NCBI GenBank assembly: GCA_020346965.1
Contig: CP070793.1
Span: 1,404,650 to 1,415,649, forward strand
From: Chloroflexota bacterium
GTDB lineage: Bacteria; Chloroflexota; Dehalococcoidia; GIF9; AB-539-J10
DNA: 11,000 nt
Direction of reading: 5' to 3'
A program made the position numbers and the translations under genes. The notes under the pieces are model-generated. The model searched no databases. It saw only the letters and a program-made list of their open reading frames with translations, and was not told the origin of the DNA. Within the stretch, counting starts at the first letter, position 1; each line of letters begins with the position of its first letter. Positions 251 through 11,000 of this stretch are shown piece by piece.

Positions 251-826
251 TCAGGGTTTGAAGTCTTCCAGAATTATCCAATCAATTTGGTTGTCACCCT
301 TGAGGACGGAAACAATATGGTTCTTGTATCGTAGTTGCTCCACTACAAATGACTGTCCATTATAGTCCAACGAAATGTGGTTCTCGTCGGGGACCGAGAT
401 TATCCGACAGGTCCTTAACCCACTTATACCAATGCCAATAACCTTCAGAATCGCTTCCTTTGCTGTCCAATAACGAAAAAAGGCCTCCCAAGACTTTTCC
501 TTTAACTCCCATTCCTTGTCACTAGCCACACGTGCAAACAGCAATTCATCTCGGGGTTTTACTTCTTCGATATCGATTCCTACCTTATCTTTGCTAACCA
601 CCGCCACCACGTACTCAGGCTTGTGCGAGAGAGACCAGTAATTGCCATTAACGCGACACGGGGCACCATTTTCGTCCTTAAGCAGTTTTCCAAGTGTTAC
701 TCCGCTTTTTTTGGCACTCACTTTAAGTGCTTCTCGAGCAATTCGGCCTAGGTAGTCTATCTTTTCTCCACCACGCAGTCTACGTTCAGTTTGGATAACT
801 GGCATAACTACTGGAAATAAAATCAT
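251..826 (-). CDS. Sfp-type 4'-phosphopantetheinyl transferase
   Basis: This enzyme would transfer phosphopantetheine from CoA to the active serine of an acyl carrier protein, most likely the ACP encoded at 5747-5998. From the ATG at 826 it has 191 residues. The Sfp-family signature is clear: LSHKPEYVVAVV (the SxSH-like element) near residue 67, VGIDIEE with metal-binding Asp85 and Glu87, and YWTAKEAILK with Glu124 and Lys123. A TTG at 871 would add 15 residues and overlap the preceding reductase gene. I prefer the ATG at 826 because it lies just past that gene's stop at 831, although its ribosome binding site is weak (a GAGGA about 12 bases upstream). At 191 residues it is short for an Sfp (about 220-230) and closer to compact pathway-specific transferases. 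It is the last gene of the operon, and its presence suggests the pathway does not rely only on the housekeeping AcpS. Confidence 0.88.
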   Translation of the reverse strand: MILFPVVMPVIQTERRLRGGEKIDYLGRIAREALKVSAKKSGVTLGKLLKDENGAPCRVNGNYWSLSHKPEYVVAVVSKDKVGIDIEEVKPRDELLFARVASDKEWELKEKSWEAFFRYWTAKEAILKVIGIGISGLRTCRIISVPDENHISLDYNGQSFVVEQLRYKNHIVSVLKGDNQIDWIILEDFKP

Positions 827-830
827 GGGC

Positions 831-1634
831 TTACTGAATCCTCGTTGTCTTATCAATAATATCTCTATCAAAGTAGTTAACTGACATTCCGCAATCTACG
901 ACGACCCCTTGTGCGTTAATCCCACTGGAGCGATCGCTCAACAGGAATACTGCCGTATTGGCTACTTCTTGGGCAGTTAGAATCTTTTTACGAAGCGTTA
1001 GTTTTTCAGTATAAAGATAATAATTGACGAATCCTGGTATTCCGGCGGATGCTGAGGTTTTCAGCGGCCCAGCGTTAACTGAGTTAAATCTAATTTGAGA
1101 AAACGCACTAAATGATTTAGCCAGAAAACATATAGTTGAATCTAGGGCAGCCTTTACTGGAGCCATAAAGCCATAAGGTTCGGCTGCCATTCTAGTCGTT
1201 GATATTGATACGGTGACTATCGATGCCTTTTCATCCAATAGGTCTTTGAACTCATTAGCGATGGCTATTAACGAATAGCAAGAGATATCAATCGACTGCA
1301 GGAAGTCTTTCTTTGCCGTTTCGTGAAATGGCTTAAGCCCCTCATCGTAATTGGCAAAAGCGACGGAATGAACAATACCGTGGAGTTTGGGATATTTTGG
1401 GGAAATATCTTTGGCGAGTTTCCTGATATCCTGCCCGCGTTCGACGTCGCATACAAAGATATCAGAACCAGGAAGGATTTTGGAGACACTCTCCCTACGT
1501 TCTTTCGATCGAACACTATAGACTACTTTGGCGTTTGTCTGAGAAAGAACCTGTCCGATAGAGAAGGCGATGCTCTTCTTGTTGGCCACTCCAAAAACAA
1601 GAAAAGTCTTACCCGCGATGTTTAAGAAATCCAT
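831..1634 (-). CDS. FabI-like enoyl-ACP reductase (SDR family), atypical active site
   Basis: The 267-residue protein follows FabI throughout: FGVANKKSIAFSIG at residues 14-27 (the FabI-type nucleotide-binding loop, not the classical TGxxxGIG), CDV at 62-64, a VHS element at 88-90, NAGP at 187-190, and a C-terminus resembling FabI's SGISGE...VDGG as SGINAQ...VDCG. The catalytic Tyr154 and Lys161 keep the Y-x6-K spacing of E. coli Tyr156/Lys163. Aligned without gaps, the second conserved Tyr of FabI (E. coli Tyr146) is Ile144 here. The expected role is NAD(P)H reduction of the trans-2-enoyl double bond on the cluster ACP, but the missing Tyr leaves substrate and even activity open. The ATG at 1634 is preceded by a strong AAGGAG six bases away. 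The gene lies 30 bases after fabZ and 4 bases before the transferase gene. Confidence 0.88.
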   Translation of the reverse strand: MDFLNIAGKTFLVFGVANKKSIAFSIGQVLSQTNAKVVYSVRSKERRESVSKILPGSDIFVCDVERGQDIRKLAKDISPKYPKLHGIVHSVAFANYDEGLKPFHETAKKDFLQSIDISCYSLIAIANEFKDLLDEKASIVTVSISTTRMAAEPYGFMAPVKAALDSTICFLAKSFSAFSQIRFNSVNAGPLKTSASAGIPGFVNYYLYTEKLTLRKKILTAQEVANTAVFLLSDRSSGINAQGVVVDCGMSVNYFDRDIIDKTTRIQ

Positions 1635-1664
1635 ATAGTGCTCCTTCTATTTACATGTTGTATG

Positions 1665-2090
1665 TTAAGGCACCTCTTTGGCCAGTGTGACAGTGAACTC
1701 AACCGTAACCGAGATTTTGCCGTCAACTGAGGCTTTGCCCTTCATGAAATAGGCATTGCTCACTTTTTCAACAAGCTCCGCTTCAATATCCAGGGTACTG
1801 CCGGGCTTGACGATACTTTTGAACTTGGCGTTATTGATTCGGGTCAAAACAGGAATACCTTCGCTGATGCCACCCATTATATTTGAAAGTAGGATTGCAC
1901 CTGTCTGAAATATGGATTCACAGATGAGCGCCCCGGGCATAATTGGTTGCCCCGGATAGTGTCCCTCAAAGACTGGTTCATCGGGCTTCACCTCTTTCTC
2001 TGTCTTGATTTTTGCTCCGCCTAATTCCACGATCCTGTCGACAAATAAGAATGGTGGACGATGGGGTATGGCATTTAGGATATCCTCCAT
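1665..2090 (-). CDS. fabZ: 3-hydroxyacyl-ACP dehydratase, FabZ type
   Basis: A single hot-dog-fold dehydratase of 141 residues, close to the usual FabZ length. HRPPFLFVDRI at residues 10-20 is the FabZ N-terminal signature. EGHYPGQPIMPGALICESIFQ at 42-62 carries catalytic His44 and Glu58, with the family spacing. It should remove water from 3-hydroxyacyl-ACP made by the adjacent ketoreductase, giving trans-2-enoyl-ACP. I chose the ATG at 2090 because GGAGG lies eight bases upstream, inside the last codons of fabG, and the product then begins MEDILNAIPHRPP as in other FabZ proteins. The longer frame from 2132 would add 14 residues that simply re-read fabG sequence. Only one base separates it from the fabG stop, so the two genes are probably translationally coupled. 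Whether it also isomerises like FabA cannot be told from sequence. Confidence 0.93.
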   Translation of the reverse strand: MEDILNAIPHRPPFLFVDRIVELGGAKIKTEKEVKPDEPVFEGHYPGQPIMPGALICESIFQTGAILLSNIMGGISEGIPVLTRINNAKFKSIVKPGSTLDIEAELVEKVSNAYFMKGKASVDGKISVTVEFTVTLAKEVP

Positions 2091-2091
2091 C

Positions 2092-2832
2092 TCATAATCC
2101 TCCAGCCACTTCAAGGGTAGAACCGGTAACATAGGATGCCTCTTTGGAGGCTAAGAAAAGAACACAAGTGGCTACTTCTTCAGTGCTTCCAAATCTCCTT
2201 AAGGGAATCCTGGCCAAGTAGGATTCACGCAACTTATCCGGAATGTCTTCAATTAATTCGGTAGCAATGAATCCCGGAGAGACACAATTGACTGTAATGC
2301 CCCGAGTGGCAACTTCCTTGGATAATGATTTAGTCAATGCACTCAAGCCTGCCTTTGAAGCTGCATAATTCGCCTGGCCTTCAAAGCCGTATCTTTCCAT
2401 CACCGAGCCTATGTTGATAATCCGTCCATACCGTTTGCGCATCAGGCTTTTAACTGCAAATTTGCACATATAAAAGATTCCAGCGAGATTGACATTCATC
2501 ACGTCGTGCCAGTCCGATTCTCTCATCATGGCCAAGACAGAGTCCTTTCGAATACCGGCGTTGTTCACCAGAACTTCAAAATTCTCATATTTCGTGTCCA
2601 TGTATCTAAAAAACTCTTCTACGTCTTGGTAATTTGATACATCAAGTTTCTGGATATCTACATTCTCAATAAACTGGCCGCTATCTTGCTTAAATTGTGC
2701 CGCCGCAGCTTCATTTGCGGTATACGTGACAATAACTCTGGCACCAGCCTTCAGGAAACTCTCGGCAATGGCTTTACCTATTCCTCTAGTACCACCGGTA
2801 ACGATGACAGTCTGGTATTTATAGTCATACAT
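2092..2832 (-). CDS. fabG: 3-oxoacyl-ACP reductase, FabG type
   Basis: A classical short-chain dehydrogenase of 246 residues, standard for FabG. It has TGGTRGIG at 12-19 (NADP-binding loop), NNAG at 90-93 and the catalytic tetrad Asn115, Ser143, Tyr156 and Lys160 (YAASK at 156-160), then the [12 protein letters not shown] segment and a C-terminal [11 protein letters not shown] typical of the family. It should reduce the 3-oxoacyl-ACP formed by the KAS enzymes of this operon. The ATG at 2832 is chosen because AGGAG sits six bases upstream; the longer frame from 2877 only re-reads the upstream oxidoreductase gene. The start overlaps the end of that gene by 8 bases. Sequence alone cannot show whether this is the housekeeping FabG or a pathway paralogue; its place in the operon favours the latter. 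Confidence 0.93.
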
Positions 2833-4249
2833 TTCTCGCTCCTGTCGACAAGAATTTGTCCACGTTATTGGCAACAATTACTCCGTAGTTAGCTGCACCC
2901 AGCCACCCGGACATGATAATCCCCACGGAACCGGTATGGAAAAGTCCAGATATCTCTTTAGGAAGCCCCGTGCTGATCTTCAATCCTTCAAATTTGGTGC
3001 CGAAAGAAGCCCCACTCAAGTGTAGTGTATACCTTTGAAATGTTCTTGGGGTGGCGGCCTCCAGGTAATCTACCTTATCTCGAATCTTAGGCACGTACTT
3101 CTCCAGAGCATTAAGCGTTCGTTGAATTAAATTTTCCTTAGCAGTTTGATATTCTTCTTCAGATAGGTTAGTCCAGTCTGCGTACTTGGCGTTAGTAGAG
3201 GCTACGACCGAAAACATATCGGAGCCAGGTCGCGTTTGCGGATAGTAGATTGAGAAGGTCCGACTGGTAGTGTTTTTACTGCAAAGTTCTTTGGACTCGA
3301 ATTTCTCCGCCTCTGAGGTAAAAAGCAAATCGCCTATATAGTCGATTCTCTCGCCCGTCCTGATACCTATATACACTTGACAACTGCTGTTATTAAGGCG
3401 CACTTTCTTGGCTTCTTCAACGAAGCCTTCGGAGAAGTTCTCGTCTCCGACTAGTCTATGAACAGTTGATAATAGATTACCATTGGAGACAACAGTTTTG
3501 CCTTTGATCGTTCTTCCATTCGCTACCACTCCGGCAACCTTTTTATCCTCGATGCCAATTCTTTCCACCAGACATCTGGTTCGAATATCAACCCCATTCT
3601 TTTTAAGCTCCGCCCTCATCATTTCGATAATCTTGTCCGTCCCGCCTCGAAAGGTATAAACACCCTTGTTAAGGAAATTGGAGAAGACTATCCCGTAGGT
3701 TATCGCAGGGTCATCCAAGGTCGACCCATTGGCATAGGTGATTGGTTCCATTATCATGCGGACAATATCGTGACGACCGGGAAAGAATTTTTCAAAAAGC
3801 TGCCTCGTAGTCATAGTTTGGTCATCATAAAAGTTCATGCCTCGGAGTGTGTTAATGAAGTTATCAATAGTCTCTCCGGGGATATTGAAGTGTTCCTGCA
3901 TTACACGTTTGAAATCATCGCTATCATAAGTCGTTGTGAGGGAGAACTGAGGGTTGTCCAATCGAATACCTTTGAGTTGAACGATGGAGTCAGCAATTTC
4001 CGGGTTCCAATACTTACGGCAGGTTTTGATCATACCCACTGGAAATCCGTGCAAGGAGATATCAAAGATGTGTCCTCCCTTTCTCTTGAACCACGCGGCC
4101 AATCCGCCAAGGTTAGTATGTTGCTCCAGAAGTAAGACGGAATGACCTACTTTGGCCAGCATATTAGCACAGGTCAATCCTGCCAAACCGCTGCCAATGA
4201 CAATTACATCGTATTCTGATTTTGTGTCTTTCAACCAATCGCGGTTCAT
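2825..4249 (-). CDS. CrtI/retinol saturase-type FAD oxidoreductase, copy 2
   Basis: A 474-residue flavoprotein of the phytoene desaturase/retinol saturase group. The N-terminus binds [15 protein letters not shown] with GxGxxG at 19-24, the ribose-binding Glu42, GG at 48-49, then a GG..FDISLHG segment around 58-68. The C-terminal FAD motif is present in the stretch ending [18 protein letters not shown]. Such enzymes desaturate, isomerise or saturate long polyene or isoprenoid chains. No carotenoid gene is nearby and all neighbours are type II fatty acid synthase genes, so an acyl-ACP or derived polyene is the likelier substrate (inference). An ATG at 4267 overlaps the previous stop as ATGA, but the ATG at 4249 has GGAG five bases upstream and starts MNRDWLKD, so I prefer it; the other start adds six residues. 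No transmembrane segment or signal peptide is evident. Confidence 0.87.
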
Positions 4250-4263
4250 TGAATCTCCGCTTT

Positions 4264-5649
4264 TCATGCCCCCTGCAGAACATGAAGATTTGCTATGGAG
4301 ATACCACTAAGCATTGCTCCGACAATCCCCAAGAATCCCTGGTCAGTGCCACAGACGAATAAGTTGTTTAAATGAGTCCTGCCCGTTTTTACTTTATTCG
4401 GCATACCATAGACCGCGCCATTTATATGACCAGTGAATCTCTGGATTGTCTTGGGAGTGAAAACGTCCGTAAAGACTATAGAATCACGAAAATCAGGCAT
4501 GAGTTTCACCACTTCATTGAGAGAGGTTCCGAGCCAGGCAGCCTTTTGCGCGTTATACTCTTCCTCGCCCAGTCTGTCCCAGAGGTCGAAGTTAGCGAGG
4601 TTAGTTATTCTTATCATGCCCTCCGGTAGGGGATTTTCGTATTGGAAATTATTGGGGCAGCATATGACCCCGCTGGAAACGTTGACCAGCTCATCAGGTT
4701 TTCGATAATCAAATCTATCTGAATTGTTATAAAAGATGATGGTCGTTTCGTGCCCTTTCTCAGCAGGCTGCCTGTTTAGCACCGTAATGAATTCTACCAT
4801 AGAGAGTTGCCCTGCTTTATCCTCTATTCCCGCGGGATCATAGTTAGACAGGAGTCTCATGGTTTCAACATACCCAGCGGAAGAGAGTATCTTACCGGTT
4901 GTGAGAACTTCACCGTTCTCGAGCTGGACAGATTCAACTCTGTCATTGGTAGCTTGAATACTTGTTACTGCGCTCCTCATTCTCAATTCACCACCACAAC
5001 TCTTATATTTTCTCACCAGCACGTCAAGGACTTGGCGCACGCCAGCTCGAGGTCTGGCAAAACCTTCACAGTAGATGCCCTTGAACATAATGACAAACTG
5101 GCTGAACTCTATATCGTTTTCCTGAGCATTTCCGTAAAACATTAGCGGGCAAAAAACCATATCGATAAGAAGCGGGTCAGAAATAATAGAGCCCACAATT
5201 TCGCGAGCTGAAACTGGTTTGGCATACAAGTTCAGCTCATCATATTCGAAAATGGTCTTGAGCAGTTTTCGGAAATTATCAGCCTGCGCTGGGAAATTAT
5301 CGACCACCTCCTGGACAAATAATTCGAGGCCGTTATTGAATCTGAGGGTTTTATCCGGAAATTTTATTGCGGACATTCGCTGTGGGCAAAGATCAAAATC
5401 TTCTCGTTTTAGCTTGAGTTGCCGGAGTAGCTTTGGCAGTGGCGTTAATCTAACACCCACAGGAACATAGTTGGTAACAGCATGAAGGCCGACATCGAAT
5501 TTACGTCCCCCACGGTTGTAAAAGGAATTAAGCCCGCCAACACGATGATGCTTCTCGATGATGCACACCCTTTTATCGTAGTAAGCCAACCTAATGCCAG
5601 CAGCAAGGCCAGACATCCCTGCGCCGATAATCAAAACATCGTAATCCAC
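4264..5649 (-). CDS. CrtI/retinol saturase-type FAD oxidoreductase, copy 1
   Basis: A 461-residue relative of the next gene in the operon. [12 protein letters not shown] carries GxGxxG at 9-14, Glu32 is the ribose-binding acid, GG is at 38-39, and [12 protein letters not shown] follows at 47-58. The C-terminus ends in a FAD-contacting [19 protein letters not shown] segment. The start is GTG at 5649, giving MDYDV; no in-frame ATG fits the Rossmann strand better, and the Shine-Dalgarno is weak. The family removes or adds hydrogen on conjugated chains; here the partners suggest an acyl substrate made on the cluster ACP (inference). Its stop overlaps a possible start of the second copy by four bases. 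The two copies differ clearly in sequence, so they probably do different steps or form a heteromer rather than being a recent duplication. Confidence 0.87.
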
Positions 5650-5746
5650 AGTCGGGCTCTTTTCAGGAAAAAGCTCTAACTTGAACCTTTAATCCTCGGG
5701 GGAAATGATATAAGAATTTGTGCTTCTGGCTTAATAACACTACCAG

Positions 5747-5998
5747 TTAAAGGTCTTTCATCCGTGGCTCTAGATAAGCTACAGAGCTATCTATCGTGGC
5801 TAACTGCATATAGTCATCTTCAGGAACTTCTATACCGTAACGTTTTCGTAGCTCCATAATAATGTCTAAGAAATCCATTGAGTCCAATTCAACTTGCTCT
5901 CGGATCGGGATATCGCCCTTAAGATTGGTCAGGTCCTCATCCGGTATAATTTCGGCGACAATCTCCATAAGGACGGATTTAATTTGCTCCTTGGTCAT
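5747..5998 (-). CDS. Acyl carrier protein
   Basis: An 83-residue acidic protein with the ACP fold pattern. The phosphopantetheine site is VELDSMDFLDII with Ser40, followed by the acidic recognition helix and the IEVPEDDYMQLATIDSSVAYLE segment that matches helix III-IV of ACPs. It would carry the growing chain between the KAS, FabG, FabZ and FabI-like enzymes encoded around it and be activated by the transferase at the operon's end. The ATG at 5998 is preceded by a run of six G bases a few nucleotides upstream, a plausible though close ribosome binding site. It follows the KAS II gene by 40 bases and precedes the first FAD oxidoreductase gene by 97 bases, a gap with no gene of its own. The Leu-Asp-Ser-Met-Asp form of the motif is common in specialised ACPs as well as in FAS ACPs. 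Confidence 0.94.
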   Translation of the reverse strand: MTKEQIKSVLMEIVAEIIPDEDLTNLKGDIPIREQVELDSMDFLDIIMELRKRYGIEVPEDDYMQLATIDSSVAYLEPRMKDL

Positions 5999-6038
5999 GT
6001 ACCCCCCATTTGCTTATTTGAAAATGGCGTTTTCAGAT

Positions 6039-7289
6039 CTATTCTTCAAGCCTTTTTATAATGACGACCGAATTGATGCCTAGCATTCCGAAGGAATTAT
6101 TCAATATATAGTTCACCTTGTCAACCTTTTTAGGTTCATTAATAACCAGGTTCTCAAATGAGCATTCGGGGTCTAGTTGGTCTACATTGATCGTCGGATG
6201 AACGATGTGGTCTTCGAAAGAAGGTAAATTCCCCGCCAATTCCAGAGCGGCAGCTGCCCCCATGGTATGACCAATATAACTCTTGGTGTTGTTTATATAT
6301 GCATCGGTACAGCTGCCGAAGACTTCTCTTATTGCCTGGCACTCTGCGGTATCTCCCTCACGAGTTCCGGTCGCATGTGTATTGATAATATCCACATCTC
6401 CAGGAGAGATGCGGGCCTTATTGAGGGCGAGTTTCATGCACTCAGCTTGCCTTTCTGAGTTTGGGAGAACGAAATCAGAAGCATCTGAGTTAACAGCATA
6501 CCCCACTATCTCGCCATAAATCCTGGCTCCCCTCTTAAGGGCATCGCCCAGCCTTTCCAGAATGAAAATGGAGCCGCCTTCGGAAACAACCAGACCATTC
6601 CTATTTTTATCGAAGGGCCGGCAAGCCTTTTCAGGGTCTCTGTGAGAAGCCAAAGCACCTTCGCTTCTAAAACTGGCAAAAGCACCAAAGGCATGAATAG
6701 TCTCTGAAACCCCGCCAGCTAGGGCCAAATCAACTTCACCCAGCAGCAACATTTGGAAGCCTTGTATAAGTCCAATATTACCGCCAGCGCAAGCGGCCCC
6801 CAATGTGTAATGTGGCCCGGTAATTCCCATATTCAAGGTTACTTCGCCGGCTGGATTGTTGGCCACTATTCTGGGGTTGTAATGGTGTGACACGAATGTT
6901 GTATCGTAATCGAATTGCTTGATTTCATATATTTGCTTTTCCGTGTCCACATTACCATGCTCGGTAATCCCGACATAGACGCCAATCCTCGATTTGTCAA
7001 GGCAGGCAAGTTCCAATTTGGCATCAGCGATTGCCTCGTGAGCACAGTAGATCGCTACCGAGCCGGCCCTCGTTCCTCGACGTAATTCCTTCTTCTTTTG
7101 ATACTTGAGTGGGTCGAAATGGCATACACCAGCCAACACTTCACCCATATAGCGGACGTTGAATTTTTGGATCCCGGATTTGCCCGTAAGTAGGCTTTCT
7201 CGAAATTCCGCCAGGTTATTTCCGTTTGGCGCCGTCAGACCGACCCCGGTGATAACAATTCGTCTTGCGTTAGGTTTTCCTGCCATCAT
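6039..7289 (-). CDS. 3-oxoacyl-ACP synthase, KAS I/II (FabF) type with unusual gating loop
   Basis: A 416-residue thiolase-fold condensing enzyme, typical for FabF. The catalytic Cys167 lies in GAACAGG, His305 in NTHATGT and His341 in KSYIGHTMGAA, with Lys336 also kept, so decarboxylative chain elongation with malonyl-ACP is expected. The C-terminal loop that reads NSFGFGGTN in FabF is NSFGMLGIN here (398-406): the gatekeeper Phe is Met402 and the next Gly is Leu403. There is no second KAS II copy, so no chain-length-factor partner as in aryl polyene or aromatic polyketide systems. The start is one of two adjacent ATGs at 7289/7286, with no strong Shine-Dalgarno. A 109-base gap separates it from the KAS III gene. 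It probably builds the main chain, possibly with shifted chain-length or unsaturation preference because of the loop. Confidence 0.92.
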   Translation of the reverse strand: MMAGKPNARRIVITGVGLTAPNGNNLAEFRESLLTGKSGIQKFNVRYMGEVLAGVCHFDPLKYQKKKELRRGTRAGSVAIYCAHEAIADAKLELACLDKSRIGVYVGITEHGNVDTEKQIYEIKQFDYDTTFVSHHYNPRIVANNPAGEVTLNMGITGPHYTLGAACAGGNIGLIQGFQMLLLGEVDLALAGGVSETIHAFGAFASFRSEGALASHRDPEKACRPFDKNRNGLVVSEGGSIFILERLGDALKRGARIYGEIVGYAVNSDASDFVLPNSERQAECMKLALNKARISPGDVDIINTHATGTREGDTAECQAIREVFGSCTDAYINNTKSYIGHTMGAAAALELAGNLPSFEDHIVHPTINVDQLDPECSFENLVINEPKKVDKVNYILNNSFGMLGINSVVIIKRLEE

Positions 7290-7398
7290 GGGATATGATT
7301 TCCATCAAGAATGCATATATTAGGGCAGTTTGAGGAAATCTAGTTGCATTGCTACTAAGGAGTATTCCTCTGACTTCATGCTGCTGGGGCTATCTTCT
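7290..7398. other. Intergenic gap inside the operon
   Basis: The largest gap within the minus-strand cluster. It contains a short imperfect palindrome, AGGAATACTCCT, and a 19-codon frame starting at 7379 on the minus strand that has no convincing ribosome binding site. I see no recognisable -35/-10 pair and no terminator, so read-through from the KAS III gene is the simplest view, but an internal promoter cannot be excluded. Confidence 0.35.
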
Positions 7399-8448
7399 CT
7401 ACCATTCTAGACCCAGCATTAGACAGACTATGCCACTGCCAATTCCCATCATGGCAACCTTATCACCAGGGCTAAGGCAACCCTGGTCAATTCCGATAGC
7501 CATGGTAATGGGCAGAGAAACCGACCCAATGTTTCCTAGGTATTCTACGGTCGAAAAGTCTTTTGCTTTCTCTAGTCCCAGGGTCTTGAACAATAACTTA
7601 CTATGCACAGCGCTAACCTGATGAGTAAAAAACCTATCTACGTCGGGGTTCTCCCACTCAAGTTCATGTTTTACGGCCTCCCAGGTGTCAGGTGCCAATC
7701 TTGCTCCATTCTTTAGCAGTTCAGTGGAGTTTGTGTGCATGTCAGGCAAAATGCTTGGATCAAAGAAGCAGGTATCCTCTTTTATACGGCAAAGATCATT
7801 GTGCTGTGAGGCTGCGCGCGTTACTCCGCCAAGAAGCTTATGACCTTCTCGCGACAAGGAGGAGTGAGTCAGTACCGCTGCTGCTGCTCCTGACCCCAAA
7901 GTCAGAGTAGCAAAGGCCGTTTTGACTTTTTCCTTGGTGATGTGCGGGTCTCTCAAAATCTTATCGATTATTGCATCAACAACTCGTTTGCTGCTCTCAG
8001 AACCAACTACAATCCCTGCTTTTACCTGACCCAACTCGATCATATTGGCCAGAGTTACCATTCCGTTAATGAAACCGAGGCAGGCATTTGAGATGTCAAA
8101 AATGGTAGCTGTGGATGGGAGACCTAGGGAATCGTGGACTACCGTAGCCGTTGCTGGCTCCAGGAAATCACGGGATACCGACGTATGCAGTAGACATCCG
8201 ATATCCTCCTTTTCGACTCCAGACTTGGCAACAGCCTTCTCTGCTGCCTTTATGCTGGCCTGGCTGGGCGCAACTTTGTCGTTCCACAATCGTCGTTCAC
8301 GAATCCCTGTCATCATTTCCAGGCGTCCGTAACGGAGATTCAACTTTTTATATATCGGAGCTAGTCTTTCCTCCAGGCTCAAAGATGTAACGGTAGTCTC
8401 AGGTAGTTCATAACCAAAAGACTCAACACAAACTTTCTTGTACCTCAT
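7399..8448 (-). CDS. OleA-like KAS III / thiolase-superfamily condensing enzyme
   Basis: A 349-residue KAS III-fold protein, longer than FabH (about 320) and of OleA length. The Cys-His-Asn triad is Cys123 (SNACLGFINGM), His276 (THQVS) and Asn306 (GNIGSVSLP). It carries features I associate with OleA: GIRERRLW at 48-55, HTSVSRDFLEPATA at 88-101 with Glu97 exactly 26 residues before the catalytic Cys, as Glu117 and Cys143 in Xanthomonas OleA, and a GIGSG..C tail. OleA joins two fatty acyl-CoAs head to head by non-decarboxylative Claisen condensation, giving a beta-keto acid. No oleB, oleC or oleD is in the window, so here it may prime the pathway with an acyl-CoA or make a ketone or branched product (inference). 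The ATG at 8448 lacks a good Shine-Dalgarno. It sits 72 bases after the repeat-protein gene. Confidence 0.87.
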   Translation of the reverse strand: MRYKKVCVESFGYELPETTVTSLSLEERLAPIYKKLNLRYGRLEMMTGIRERRLWNDKVAPSQASIKAAEKAVAKSGVEKEDIGCLLHTSVSRDFLEPATATVVHDSLGLPSTATIFDISNACLGFINGMVTLANMIELGQVKAGIVVGSESSKRVVDAIIDKILRDPHITKEKVKTAFATLTLGSGAAAAVLTHSSLSREGHKLLGGVTRAASQHNDLCRIKEDTCFFDPSILPDMHTNSTELLKNGARLAPDTWEAVKHELEWENPDVDRFFTHQVSAVHSKLLFKTLGLEKAKDFSTVEYLGNIGSVSLPITMAIGIDQGCLSPGDKVAMMGIGSGIVCLMLGLEW

Positions 8449-8520
8449 TCAGTACTCTACTTTTTCCTTGCAAGCATCGTAGGAATCCACGACGAATCTA
8501 GCTGTATCAACTGCACAGGT

Positions 8521-8934
8521 TCACTTCGGTCTGCTCGATATTAATCTCGGAATATGGAACTTAGTTCTGATATTTTCCCACCTTCCTGTTGACTCAGGGG
8601 GAATTAACTCGTCCGGAATATATTTCCCCACCCCGGCAAGGACGGTACAGACTTTCCTCGAGTTCGCCACTTCGTCGGGAACATACTCGTCAGCCATAGC
8701 AATAGCAAAGGAGCGCAGTCTATTGGAAGCTACTTTTTCGACCACTCTAATTCCGAAGGAAATCAACCTATTTGGGACACGCCTATCCAAAAAATTGAGG
8801 CCAAAGAGCAGCAGCCTGTCTGGCGCATATTTATCTACAGCCTTCACAACAATAAAGAACCCTCTCCTCGATATGGGTCTAATTATGGAATCAAACTTGG
8901 GTTTCTTTTCCTGTGCTACTTTGTCCTCTTCCAT
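8521..8934 (-). CDS. Hypothetical 137-residue protein of tandem 16-residue repeats
   Basis: I do not recognise this family. After a charged N-terminus, the protein is mostly tandem 16-residue units with no gap: 15-30, 31-46, 47-62, 63-78 and 79-94, with a further related unit at about 100-115 after a short insert. The shared pattern is roughly hydrophobic-x-x-(D/E)-(K/R)-x-x-(P/S)-(D/N)-R-L-x-x-F-x-(I/L), seen as KYAPDRLL, RRVPNRLI, KVASNRLR, EYVPDEVA and KYIPDELI. The units are basic and amphipathic; there is no signal peptide or clear membrane span, although the helices could lie on a membrane or bind a partner. The ATG at 8934 has GGAG seven bases upstream. It is the first gene of the minus-strand operon, so it may serve the pathway as a scaffold or membrane-associated accessory protein (inference). 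Confidence 0.72.
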   Translation of the reverse strand: MEEDKVAQEKKPKFDSIIRPISRRGFFIVVKAVDKYAPDRLLLFGLNFLDRRVPNRLISFGIRVVEKVASNRLRSFAIAMADEYVPDEVANSRKVCTVLAGVGKYIPDELIPPESTGRWENIRTKFHIPRLISSRPK

Positions 8935-9009: not shown

Positions 9010-9038
9010 TTGACACGCTTCAACAACTGGGGTAGAAT
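9010..9038 (+). promoter_or_regulatory. Sigma-70-type promoter of rpsU
   Basis: A perfect TTGACA at 9010-9015, a 17-base spacer and TAGAAT at 9033-9038 form a strong housekeeping promoter. Initiation would be expected near 9044-9046, only about 6-8 bases before the rpsU ATG at 9052, implying a very short or absent leader. Confidence 0.72.
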
Positions 9039-9051
9039 ACATTGTTTTGAT

Positions 9052-9228
9052 ATGGCCGACGTAAAGCTTGGTTCAGGTGAGAGTTTCGAGGCCCTGCTGC
9101 GTAGGTTCAATAGACAAGTGCAGCAGGACCGTATTTTGGCTGAAGTTCGCCGCCGTAAGCATTTTGAAAAGCCCAGCGAAGAGAGGAGAAAAAAAGCGGC
9201 AGCGAAAAGGCGGAAAAGTTCCAGATAG
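9052..9228 (+). CDS. rpsU: 30S ribosomal protein S21
   Basis: A 58-residue, highly basic protein with the S21 pattern: MADVKLGSGESFEALLRRFNR at the start, then an arginine-rich helix (QQDRILAEVRRRKHFEKPSE) and a Lys/Arg tail. S21 joins the small ribosomal subunit and assists translation initiation. I chose the ATG at 9052 because the product then begins with the conserved S21 N-terminus; the frame is open upstream to 9010 but that part overlaps the promoter. No Shine-Dalgarno precedes the ATG, consistent with the near-leaderless arrangement predicted from the promoter. It heads the plus-strand group and is divergent from the biosynthetic operon. rpsU next to a YqeY gene is a common bacterial arrangement. 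Confidence 0.95.
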   Translation: MADVKLGSGESFEALLRRFNRQVQQDRILAEVRRRKHFEKPSEERRKKAAAKRRKSSR

Positions 9229-9340
9229 TTACCCCACAAGAACTTCGTTTTCAGGTAGCCTTAGGTTTATTCATTGACATCTTTGGGGTCTCGTTAAGAA
9301 CAGTAAAACGGATTTTTCGTATGGAGATGGTAGCCAGGAA

Positions 9341-9790
9341 ATGACACTTAAGGACAATATTCAGGAATCCCTCAAAAGAGCACTTAAGCAGCAGCAGAAA
9401 ATAGAAGTTGCCACATTAAGATTACTATTATCTGAAATAAAGAACGCTGAAATTGCTCAGCAAAAGCCCGCCGACGATAGCAAAGTGCTTGATGTTATTA
9501 CCAGGGAAGTGAAACGTCGTCGGGAGAGCATCGAAGCCTTTAAGCAGGGGAATCGTGGCGATCTCGTAGCGCAGGAAGAAGCAGAACTGGCGATCCTCAT
9601 GAGCTATCTCCCTGAGCAAATGAGTAGGGAAGAGATCATAGCAACAGCACGACAGGTGATTGATACGGTCGGAGCTCAGGGGCTGAGCGACAAAGGCAAA
9701 GTCATGTCTCAGCTTATGCCTCAACTCAAAGGCAAAGCTGATGGTAAAGAGATAAGCGATATAGTTACAGAATTGCTTACTGCCGTCTAG
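9341..9790 (+). CDS. yqeY: GatB/YqeY-domain protein
   Basis: A 149-residue helical protein of normal YqeY length. Family motifs are visible: LRLLLSEIKNAEIA at 26-39, REVKRRRESIEAF at 55-67, MSYLPEQMSREEI at 87-99 and DKGKVMSQLMPQLKGKADG at 117-135. The C-terminal half resembles the tail domain of the GatB subunit of the tRNA-dependent amidotransferase, so a link to tRNA is assumed, but the exact function of stand-alone YqeY is not settled. The ATG at 9341 follows AGGAA directly, too close to be an ideal ribosome binding site. A seven-codon frame (9321-9344) ends in TGA overlapping this ATG as ATGA, which might help re-initiation, or be chance. It lies 112 bases after rpsU with no terminator visible between them. 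Confidence 0.92.
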   Translation: MTLKDNIQESLKRALKQQQKIEVATLRLLLSEIKNAEIAQQKPADDSKVLDVITREVKRRRESIEAFKQGNRGDLVAQEEAELAILMSYLPEQMSREEIIATARQVIDTVGAQGLSDKGKVMSQLMPQLKGKADGKEISDIVTELLTAV

Positions 9791-9819
9791 ACTAAGAAGG
9801 CGGTCGAATTTTCTACATT

Positions 9820-9851
9820 ATGGCGGTATGGAGATAAAAGATTACCGCCAT
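9820..9851. promoter_or_regulatory. Nine-base-pair inverted repeat before the DUF1015 gene
   Basis: ATGGCGGTA (9820-9828) and TACCGCCAT (9843-9851) form a perfect 9-bp stem with a 14-base loop, followed by TATTCTTTA. It could be a weak intrinsic terminator for yqeY. It also overlaps a possible leaderless promoter for the next gene (TGGAGA at 9829-9834, 17 bases, TATTCT at 9852-9857, ATG at 9863) and could then act as an operator. A second GGCGGT at 9799-9804 could compete for the ACCGCC strand, as in an attenuator. Confidence 0.45.
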
Positions 9852-9862
9852 TATTCTTTAGC

Positions 9863-11000
9863 ATGGAAGTTTCTCCATTTCGAGGTATAAGTTATAACCA
9901 GAGAATAGCCGGCGATCTCGTCCAAGTTATTTGCCCGCCATATGACATCATCACTCCTGAACAACAAAAACTCTACTACCAAGAAAGTAGCTACAATGCT
10001 ATTCGCCTGGAATTCCCCACTGAAAGCCAGGAAACGACAGTAGATCACTATCAAAGGGCAGCTACTACCTTTCAACAGTGGTTGAAGCAAGAAATTCTTC
10101 AACTTGACAGCGTAGCCAGTTTCTACCTGCATGACCATCGCTTTGCGTATTCAGGCGAAAGGAAGACGAGGCGCGGCCTAATAGCTCGTGTTAAGCTTGA
10201 ACCCTGGGGCACTGCCATATATCCTCACGAAGAAACCTTCCCCAAAGCTAAAGGTGATCGTTTGCAGCTGATGCGAGCTTGCCAGGCTACTTTCAGTCCG
10301 TTACTTGCTCTTTACCATGATCCGGAGCAAAAAATCGCCCCGGTATTGTCCGGCATAACACAAGAAAAACCGTTAATATCGTCAAAAGCAAAGCGAAGCA
10401 ATCTCCCCGACTCTAACGAAGCTCATACTCTATGGGCAATAACAGAACCGGAAATCAAGCAGGAGCTAAGTCAGTTTCTATCCTCTCAGCCCCTTTACAT
10501 TGCTGATGGACATCACCGCTATGAGACAGCCCTGACTTACCAACAGGAAAGAGCAAAAGACCAACCTGTAACTGGCAAGGAAGCTTTCAATTATGTAATG
10601 CTGGAGTTAGTCGACTTTTCTGACCCTGGGCTGGTGATTCTACCTCTGCACAGGTTAGTGCGCGGTATACTGCCCTCTATCTTGGGAGAGCTGGAAGACC
10701 GACTCAAGAACTTCTTCGTTCTTGAGTCTGCACCCTTAAAAGATGACAACTGTCAGATCCCAACCGATAGCTGCTTGGGAATCCTTGGCTTACAGTCTGG
10801 CTCATTGGTCTTATTGAGGAAACGTCGGGATATTTCCCTTGACGCTATGATGCCAGGCAACAGGTCCCGAGCTTATCGGCAGTTCGACGTTAGCATTCTC
10901 AATCATATTATTTTGGAAAAGATAATGGATCTCACTCTAAGAGATAACATCGCTTACACCGTAGACCTGAAAGAAGCTCACCAGCAGATAAAGGACGGGG
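9863..11000 (+). CDS. DUF1015 family protein (3' end outside window)
   Basis: The frame from ATG 9863 stays open to the window edge, about 379 residues, against roughly 400-450 for the full family. The start MEVSPFRGISYN and the nearby CPPYDIITPEQQ are typical of DUF1015, as is the signature ADGHHRYETA, with Asp215, Gly216, His217, His218, Arg219 and Tyr220. A PHEETFPKAKGDR segment, also conserved in the family, precedes it at about 122-134. The biochemical role of this widespread family is not established; the His-rich signature suggests a catalytic or metal site (inference). There is no Shine-Dalgarno before the ATG. It follows yqeY by 72 bases across the inverted repeat described separately. 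No frameshift is seen. Confidence 0.88.
   Translation, partial: MEVSPFRGISYNQRIAGDLVQVICPPYDIITPEQQKLYYQESSYNAIRLEFPTESQETTVDHYQRAATTFQQWLKQEILQLDSVASFYLHDHRFAYSGERKTRRGLIARVKLEPWGTAIYPHEETFPKAKGDRLQLMRACQATFSPLLALYHDPEQKIAPVLSGITQEKPLISSKAKRSNLPDSNEAHTLWAITEPEIKQELSQFLSSQPLYIADGHHRYETALTYQQERAKDQPVTGKEAFNYVMLELVDFSDPGLVILPLHRLVRGILPSILGELEDRLKNFFVLESAPLKDDNCQIPTDSCLGILGLQSGSLVLLRKRRDISLDAMMPGNRSRAYRQFDVSILNHIILEKIMDLTLRDNIAYTVDLKEAHQQIKDG

Follow-up and report, generated by a model that had tools for sequence, protein, structure and literature searches.

A conserved type II fatty acid synthase operon of Chloroflexota with an OleA-family condensing enzyme and two CrtI-type flavoproteins

Fatty acyl chains are joined head to head in the OleABCD pathway, the distribution of which has been described (PMC7158056). 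In Shewanella, the Pfa synthase is believed to supply OleA with a 16:4 chain, and a 31:8 ketone results when OleBCD are missing (PMC6463001). The same ketone was formed when OleA and Pfa were combined in E. coli, and the authors concluded that OleA takes acyl-ACP, i.e., a chain bound to acyl carrier protein (ACP) (PMC6463001). In assays, the beta-keto acid made by OleA decarboxylates spontaneously to a ketone (PMC7064751). Rattray et al. described gene clusters in Kuenenia and Desulfotalea psychrophila in which type II fatty acid synthase (FAS II) genes are combined with phytoene-dehydrogenase-like genes (Rattray et al., 2009; PMC2649909). The latter organism produces C31:8 and C31:9 hydrocarbons although it has no known polyunsaturated fatty acid (PUFA) synthase; hydrocarbons of this kind are stated to be known from planctomycetes (PMC2649909). 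Here, a ten-gene operon is described from the window, the whole stretch of 11,000 nucleotides that was analyzed (Chloroflexota contig CP070793.1, positions 1,404,650 to 1,415,649; assembly GCA_020346965.1).

The operon is real, conserved and dedicated, and is part of a head-to-head lipid system with a chain maker unlike Pfa and an incomplete Ole tail. On balance, we consider it fairly probable that a Pfa-independent, CrtI-assisted FAS II line makes a polyunsaturated acyl-ACP, which is condensed head to head by OleA. The gene set, its order and conservation, the OleA family membership and the linkage to ole genes are supported directly. The ten genes lie on the minus strand at 251-8934, lack internal stops and are read in the following order, KAS denoting 3-oxoacyl-ACP synthase:

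8521..8934, minus strand: REP, a small repeat protein, predicted to be all-helical; first gene
7399..8448, minus strand: OleA-like KAS III, by family a head-to-head acyl-condensing thiolase (NF006720, PF08541)
6039..7289, minus strand: KAS II of a separate clade, Cys-His-His triad intact (PF00109/PF02801)
5747..5998, minus strand: dedicated ACP with Ser40 (PF00550); DSMDF kept in at least 95% of 40 aligned rows
4264..5649, minus strand: CrtA, first CrtI/CrtISO-type FAD oxidoreductase, GTG start (Amino_oxidase/CrtI-type family)
2825..4267, minus strand: CrtB, second CrtI/CrtISO-type FAD oxidoreductase (Amino_oxidase/CrtI-type family)
2092..2832, minus strand: FabG ketoacyl reductase, Ser-Tyr-Lys kept (NF009466, 254.5 bits against a cut-off of 222)
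1665..2090, minus strand: FabZ-type dehydratase (PF07977; NF000582, 123.8 bits against a cut-off of 113; H44/E58 from the revised start)
831..1634, minus strand: ENR, a FabI-like enoyl-ACP reductase (PF13561; Y154-x6-K161 kept in at least 95% of 27 aligned rows)
251..826, minus strand: Sfp-type phosphopantetheinyl transferase (PPTase; PF01648, 53.5 bits against a cut-off of 25)
9010..10999, plus strand: rpsU, yqeY and DUF1015, divergent neighbours outside the pathway

The original prediction had listed ten same-strand genes of these families, and all are present, the repeat protein being the one without a family match. CrtA and CrtB are working labels for the two CrtI-type flavoproteins and not carotenoid gene names; CrtB is not the phytoene synthase crtB. 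After three starts had been shifted inwards (FabG to 2832, FabZ to 2090 and PPTase to 826), the intergenic gaps measure at most 109 bases, with overlaps at CrtA/CrtB (4 bases) and CrtB/FabG (8 bases).

Relatives were sought in one genome per species (84,980 species) with six short peptide patterns from KAS II, a scan that reaches close relatives only. It matched 48 stretches, of which 27 encoded a relative and are treated as 27 loci; genome-wide statements rest on these relatives' genomes and not on the window's own genome. Sixteen loci are labelled Dehalococcoidia, Dehalococcoidales, Chloroflexi or Chloroflexota, and the other 11 Planctomycetota, Verrucomicrobia/Opitutae or Lentisphaeria. The closest KAS II proteins (92% and 91% identical) occur in two Dehalococcoidia metagenome-assembled genomes (MAGs), both with the same operon; on this relationship the host is assigned to Dehalococcoidia, in agreement with the earlier view that it is probably not an anammox planctomycete. 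Eleven of the 16 Chloroflexota loci hold the complete set of ten, which is conserved synteny and not chance; the original prediction had proposed to look for such synteny. Across the Chloroflexota loci, KAS II is 72-92% identical. The operon is cut by contig ends in L006, L007 and L015. The piece in L014 begins inside KAS II and is without ACP, KAS III and REP, and REP-OleA-KAS II-ACP are found on another contig (L056) of the same genome; the L011 piece begins inside a KAS III and is without REP.

The coupling to head-to-head chemistry starts from the KAS III, which scores 447 bits against NF006720 (curated cut-off 285), a model, also PRK09258, that we take to cover OleA. Its closest solved structures are twelve entries of the 3row group (5e-67 to 2e-65), with the next entry at 9e-21. 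These twelve are annotated as 3-oxoacyl-[ACP] synthase III or 3-oxoacyl-synthase III and are presumably Xanthomonas OleA. Residues E97, C123, H276 and N306, to which we assign the OleA active-site roles, align to 3row and are kept in at least 95% of 35 rows. The KAS III is thus classed as OleA on its family model and its active site, as the original prediction had suspected. Of the 27 cluster genomes, 26 (all but G027) have an OleA above the cut-off; of 14 control genomes, none does. In an OleA tree with midpoint rooting, the Chloroflexota rows form with the window and G025 a group of 19 (100/100), which joins five planctomycete rows (96/95), and transfer between the two phyla, in either direction, is plausible. 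The G025 locus (L025; Planctomycetota bin1449) carries a duplicated cluster of the Chloroflexota type, 66-75% identical to the window proteins, with part of one KAS II reading as N; such a cluster on a planctomycete-labelled chromosome may reflect transfer or a mislabelled bin.

The link to the Ole pathway is best seen in planctomycetes. On one strand of L112 (genome G679), the order is OleA-KAS II-ACP-CrtA-CrtB-FabG-FabZ-ENR-PPTase-OleB-OleC-OleD, i.e., the window's order from OleA to PPTase plus oleBCD, with about 1 kb of sequence without an assigned gene between OleA and KAS II. L114 repeats this order without a FabG match. In a Planctomicrobium piriforme MAG (L024), the 3' part of oleC and oleD lie directly 5' of KAS II-ACP-CrtA-CrtB-FabZ-ENR, the OleC being a contig-end fragment with 210 bits to the OleC model. 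CrtB(end)-FabZ-ENR-OleA-OleB was found in Opitutales (L052) and FabZ-ENR-OleA-OleB in Verrucomicrobia (L057). CrtA matched in 98 of 392 planctomycete genomes (E<=1e-50), and 12 of 20 loci inspected around these matches contained at least one ole gene; L113, with a weak OleD match only (30% over 182 residues), was counted among the eight without. OleC matched in 152 of the 392 (E<=1e-100; 145 over the curated cut-off). CrtA and OleC occurred together in 97 of the 98 CrtA genomes, where 38 would be expected, the odds treating related genomes as independent. In the sole exception, G549, pieces of OleC and OleD stand where the contig ends (L109). CrtA and OleC are no more than 20 kb apart in at least 39 pairs and no more than 10 kb apart in at least 37; the distances come from 43 OleC places picked by eye, so that 39 of 98 is a lower bound. 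Within the class of G026 (294 genomes), KAS II was found in 23 genomes (E<=1e-100), OleA in 22 and both in 18, counts that ignore shared ancestry. Head-to-head joining, and thus the coupling of this line to OleA, is strongly supported because OleA is over the cut-off, planctomycete loci are collinear up to oleBCD, and OleC accompanies CrtA in 97 of 98 genomes. No report tying a FAS II-CrtI operon to Ole was found in the literature searched, which was mostly open-access. Another incomplete Ole set was seen in G021, G022 and G023 (L021, L022 and L023), which have OleA over the cut-off and a close OleB and no OleC over the cut-off.

As the original prediction proposed, the line is a dedicated one and not the sole FAS II of its carriers. 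Ketosynthase matches beyond the cluster KAS II occur in 27 of 27 genomes, some of them weak and thiolase-like. Separate FabF genes were located in G026 and G010 (L028, L029 and L030), one of them in a plsX-acpP-fabG-fabF-like operon beside ribosomal genes (names in L029 by eye). In a KAS II tree of 50 rows, a long branch (100/99) separates the 47 cluster rows from three FabF rows, which come from two relatives. C167, H305, K336 and H341, presumably the catalytic residues of KAS II, are kept in at least 95% of the 47 rows. A housekeeping or sole FAS II was rejected on the basis of the relatives' separate FabF genes and the distinct KAS II clade.

Membership in three further pathways was considered and rejected. 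Phytoene/squalene synthase (PF00494) was found in none of the 16 Chloroflexota genomes and in 4 of the 27 cluster genomes overall; on its absence from all 16, a carotenoid pathway was rejected, and in these relatives the refuting outcome named in the original prediction, CrtI genes of a separate carotenoid pathway, did not occur. CrtA and CrtB share their fold and a distant sequence similarity with the carotenoid flavoproteins CrtI, CrtISO and CrtD; their closest curated models are carotenoid isomerase and CrtD, far under the cut-off, and structural alignments of CrtA with 4rep and 4dgk give 17-20% identity. Aryl polyene clusters contain a ketosynthase pair with a chain length factor, an AMP ligase and acyltransferases. 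As had been noted earlier, these defining features are missing: there is one KAS II with an intact triad, and no ketosynthase pair, ligase or acyltransferase is among the window genes. The candidate ladderane clusters of anammox bacteria likewise combine FAS II genes with CrtI-type enzymes. They also contain radical SAM genes and FabF paralogues without the catalytic triad, whereas none of the 13 window genes scanned is a radical SAM gene and the KAS II triad is intact, which led to rejection. For the same two reasons, cyclisation of the product, one of the outcomes offered in the original prediction for an unusual acyl chain, finds no support; of the others, head-to-head joining stands firmly and polyunsaturation is likely. 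PF18582 matched in 4 of 57 of the 98 CrtA-bearing planctomycete genomes, one with 13 copies, and the anammox members are not singled out.

The source of the chain is the next question. PfaA (TIGR02813) is over the cut-off in none of 47 genomes, on which ground membership of a Pfa synthase was rejected; at E<=1e-60 there is no match in the 16 Chloroflexota genomes or in G679. The FAS II-CrtI line therefore seems to take the place that Pfa has in Shewanella. In the favored account, the PPTase would arm the ACP, and KAS II, FabG and FabZ would elongate and dehydrate the chain, the FabI-like reductase saturating some rounds only. The two CrtI/CrtISO-type flavoproteins would position or preserve double bonds, most likely through isomerisation or desaturation of intermediates at the enoyl-ACP stage. 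The output would be a short-to-medium polyunsaturated acyl-ACP (16:4 by analogy), made without a Pfa synthase, and OleA would join two such chains head to head into a beta-keto acid. In planctomycetes with the same operon, OleBCD would then yield an olefin of the hentriacontanonaene kind. We infer the role of the flavoproteins and the chain length, and likewise that the chain is likely polyunsaturated.

Several points weigh against this account. Sub-cut-off, polyketide-synthase-like PfaA matches (E<=1e-60) occur in 9 of the 47 genomes, all planctomycetes, so that a pfa-like source is possible there. In a review, the C31:9 producers then known also make EPA or DHA, and in Geobacter bemidjiensis pfa and ole stand in tandem (PMC4882568); both observations therefore favor Pfa as the usual source. 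For Geobacter and a planctomycete, Shulse and Allen suggested that pfa-like synthases are the source (Shulse and Allen, 2011; PMC3098273). Two CrtI-like enzymes of Kuenenia formed no lycopene, and no new fatty acid appeared when an operon with Kuste3336 was introduced into E. coli, where the proteins were mostly insoluble (PMC4790861), so that any job assigned to such flavoproteins is tentative. The acid residue of the operon's FabZ is of the FabZ and not the FabA type. The OleB and OleD labels used here denote a fold family (Abhydrolase_1 and 3Beta_HSD, respectively) and a position by OleA/OleC, no curated model being involved. At the thresholds used, 55 of the 152 planctomycete genomes with OleC have no CrtA; Ole can therefore use other chains and needs no such line. 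In the class of G026, KAS II stands alone in 5 of 23 genomes and OleA in 4 of 22, mismatches that may be explained by fragmented MAGs or thresholds. Lipid data were found for no carrier.

The tail of the pathway differs between the phyla. OleC is over the cut-off in 0 of 34 Chloroflexota carriers, namely 0 of 16 and 0 of 18 further genomes with KAS II or OleA; beside those 18, the second search included five planctomycete genomes, 4 of which were over the cut-off. Weaker ligase matches occur in every genome of the first search, the best in Chloroflexota reaching 164 bits against a cut-off of 478. A close OleB (E<=1e-80) is found in 9 of 27 cluster genomes and 0 of 16 Chloroflexota, 6 of which have 30-33% identical matches only. 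OleB, OleC and OleD are not among the window genes, and no genome-wide search for OleD was made. Because OleC over the cut-off and a close OleB are missing in Chloroflexota carriers, we infer that the product there is probably a long ketone and not an olefin. The beta-keto acid would decarboxylate to a long polyunsaturated ketone (31:8 kind) or be taken up by another enzyme. Extra copies of the condensing enzymes were observed in L011:3-5077 and L017:7210-12664 (two KAS III and two KAS II each) and in L025:7112-11233 (two KAS II and one KAS III in the piece). Such duplicates could mean that two different acyl chains are joined head to head into an asymmetric product.

The rival that survives best, possible and clearly less probable than the favored account, keeps the coupling of FAS II to OleA with saturated or mono-unsaturated chains and lets the flavoproteins act after condensation, e.g., by oxidising or isomerising the long ketone. 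CrtI relatives act on long hydrophobic chains, the sequence and fold of CrtA and CrtB give no sign of acyl-ACP use, and the operon's FabI-like reductase could saturate every round. However, a private KAS II, ACP, FabG and FabZ for ordinary chains would be unexplained, and a precursor-specific role better fits both the 55 genomes with OleC and no CrtA and the KAS II-ACP-CrtA block, which can be distant from oleC (5.1 Mb in G013).

Less probable again is a role of the OleA-like KAS III as a starter enzyme that would supply KAS II with an unusual acyl primer; the product would then be a ladderane-related membrane fatty acid with one chain, either polyunsaturated or cyclic. The combination of FAS II and CrtI-type enzymes does resemble the candidate ladderane loci (PMC2649909, PMC4790861), and OleC over the cut-off is missing in Chloroflexota carriers. 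Against this, the KAS III passes NF006720 and keeps E97/C123/H276/N306, loci of the same order carry oleBCD, and the window is without the radical SAM gene and the triad-less KAS II of Kuenenia.

It is quite improbable that enzymes encoded elsewhere in the genome convert the beta-keto acid to a beta-lactone or to another natural product. Homologues of OleA, OleC and OleD also make beta-lactones (PMC7064751), and proteins with Condensation and Polyketide_cyc2 domains are encoded just downstream on the opposite strand in several relatives. The OleC family, however, is over the cut-off in none of the 34 Chloroflexota genomes with KAS II or OleA, and the downstream genes are convergent and therefore not in one operon with the ten genes. 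That the operon is a partly decayed ole operon retained by chance after loss of oleBCD hardly deserves credence: oleBCD were not found (with no genome-wide OleD search) and presence is patchy (of the 294 genomes in the class, 23 have KAS II), yet 11 of 16 loci hold the whole set of ten genes, catalytic residues are kept, KAS II is 72-92% identical, and OleA-KAS II pairs are duplicated in L011 and L017.

Some features of the genes and their neighborhood remain to be described. FabG scores 293.2 bits against TIGR01830 (cut-off 297.75), and twelve FabI models match ENR among the 25 listed, all under their cut-offs. The His/Glu site of the dehydratase is, as we take it, the FabZ rather than the FabA pattern. 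The PPTase has conserved G98-I99-D100 and W135-T-A-K-E-A motifs (numbered from the longer start). In L017:18279-19226 (PF00698) and L011:10668-11609 (by eye), the gene after the PPTase has the same orientation and encodes a FabD-type malonyl transacylase. A DUF362 and a Condensation-domain protein are convergent after the PPTase in L003:13893-17191, L002, L004, L005, L009, L010 and L012; 5 of these 7 sets include a Polyketide_cyc2 protein, on a Pfam basis for L003 and by eye for the others. In L001 and L026, a different long gene occupies this place. At the other end, rpsU and yqeY (window 9010-9790) adjoin REP in several Chloroflexota loci too, and in L010:5255-8349 about 3 kb of other sequence intervene.

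REP comprises 137 residues with short repeats of approximately Y-x-P-D-x-L-like motifs (by eye) and has no match in Pfam or NCBIfam. Among 118 loci, BLAST found it in Chloroflexota only, always on the same strand and 5' of an OleA, at a distance of 75-82 bases (181 in L061). That last locus (G009:C60) adds a second REP-OleA-KAS II-ACP set to a genome in which the full operon is also present, and the second OleA of L017 is without its own REP. The alignment has 16 rows, and the predicted structure (pLDDT 62) gave no PDB match at E<=0.001. As a guess, REP may be a lipid-facing accessory.

In broader terms, a Pfa-independent polyunsaturated route, with a type II synthase and two CrtI/CrtISO-type flavoproteins acting on acyl-ACP and tied to OleA, may exist in Planctomycetota, Verrucomicrobiota, Lentisphaerota and Dehalococcoidia. 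It would explain the anaerobic C31 polyene hydrocarbons, and Dehalococcoidia would make long polyunsaturated ketones; we put the chances of this wider proposal at about even. Polyunsaturated C31 hydrocarbons in D. psychrophila, made without a known PUFA synthase, were reported in 2009 (PMC2649909), and the operon offers a candidate enzyme set. A function is also suggested for the CrtI-type enzymes that have been proposed, without proof, as ladderane desaturases; if the account is true, these would be acyl-ACP relatives of the same kind. For experiments, the operon is short, self-contained and expressible in one piece; among planctomycetes, carriers of the fuller version may serve as culturable test beds. 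The account further predicts an unrecognised lipid class in Dehalococcoidia, which are common in anoxic sediments, and this class could matter as a biomarker.

Besides the carotenoid flavoproteins compared above, three known systems stand closest. The FAS II clusters of Kuenenia stuttgartiensis and Desulfotalea psychrophila, compared here by their description, bring FAS II and CrtI-type enzymes together in anaerobes, as does the present operon; unlike it, they include radical SAM genes, and the FabF paralogues of Kuenenia have lost residues (PMC2649909). The OleABCD pathway of Xanthomonas and Shewanella has an OleA with the same four catalytic residues, and planctomycete versions of the operon carry oleBCD; what sets this operon apart is a FAS II of its own and the pair of CrtI-type enzymes. 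With the Pfa and Ole systems of Shewanella, Photobacterium and Geobacter bemidjiensis, which lead to hentriacontanonaene, the operon shares a dedicated chain maker that hands acyl-ACP to OleA, PPTase included (PMC6463001, PMC4882568, PMC3098273). In contrast to these systems, the chain maker here consists of discrete FAS II enzymes and flavoproteins in place of the multidomain Pfa.

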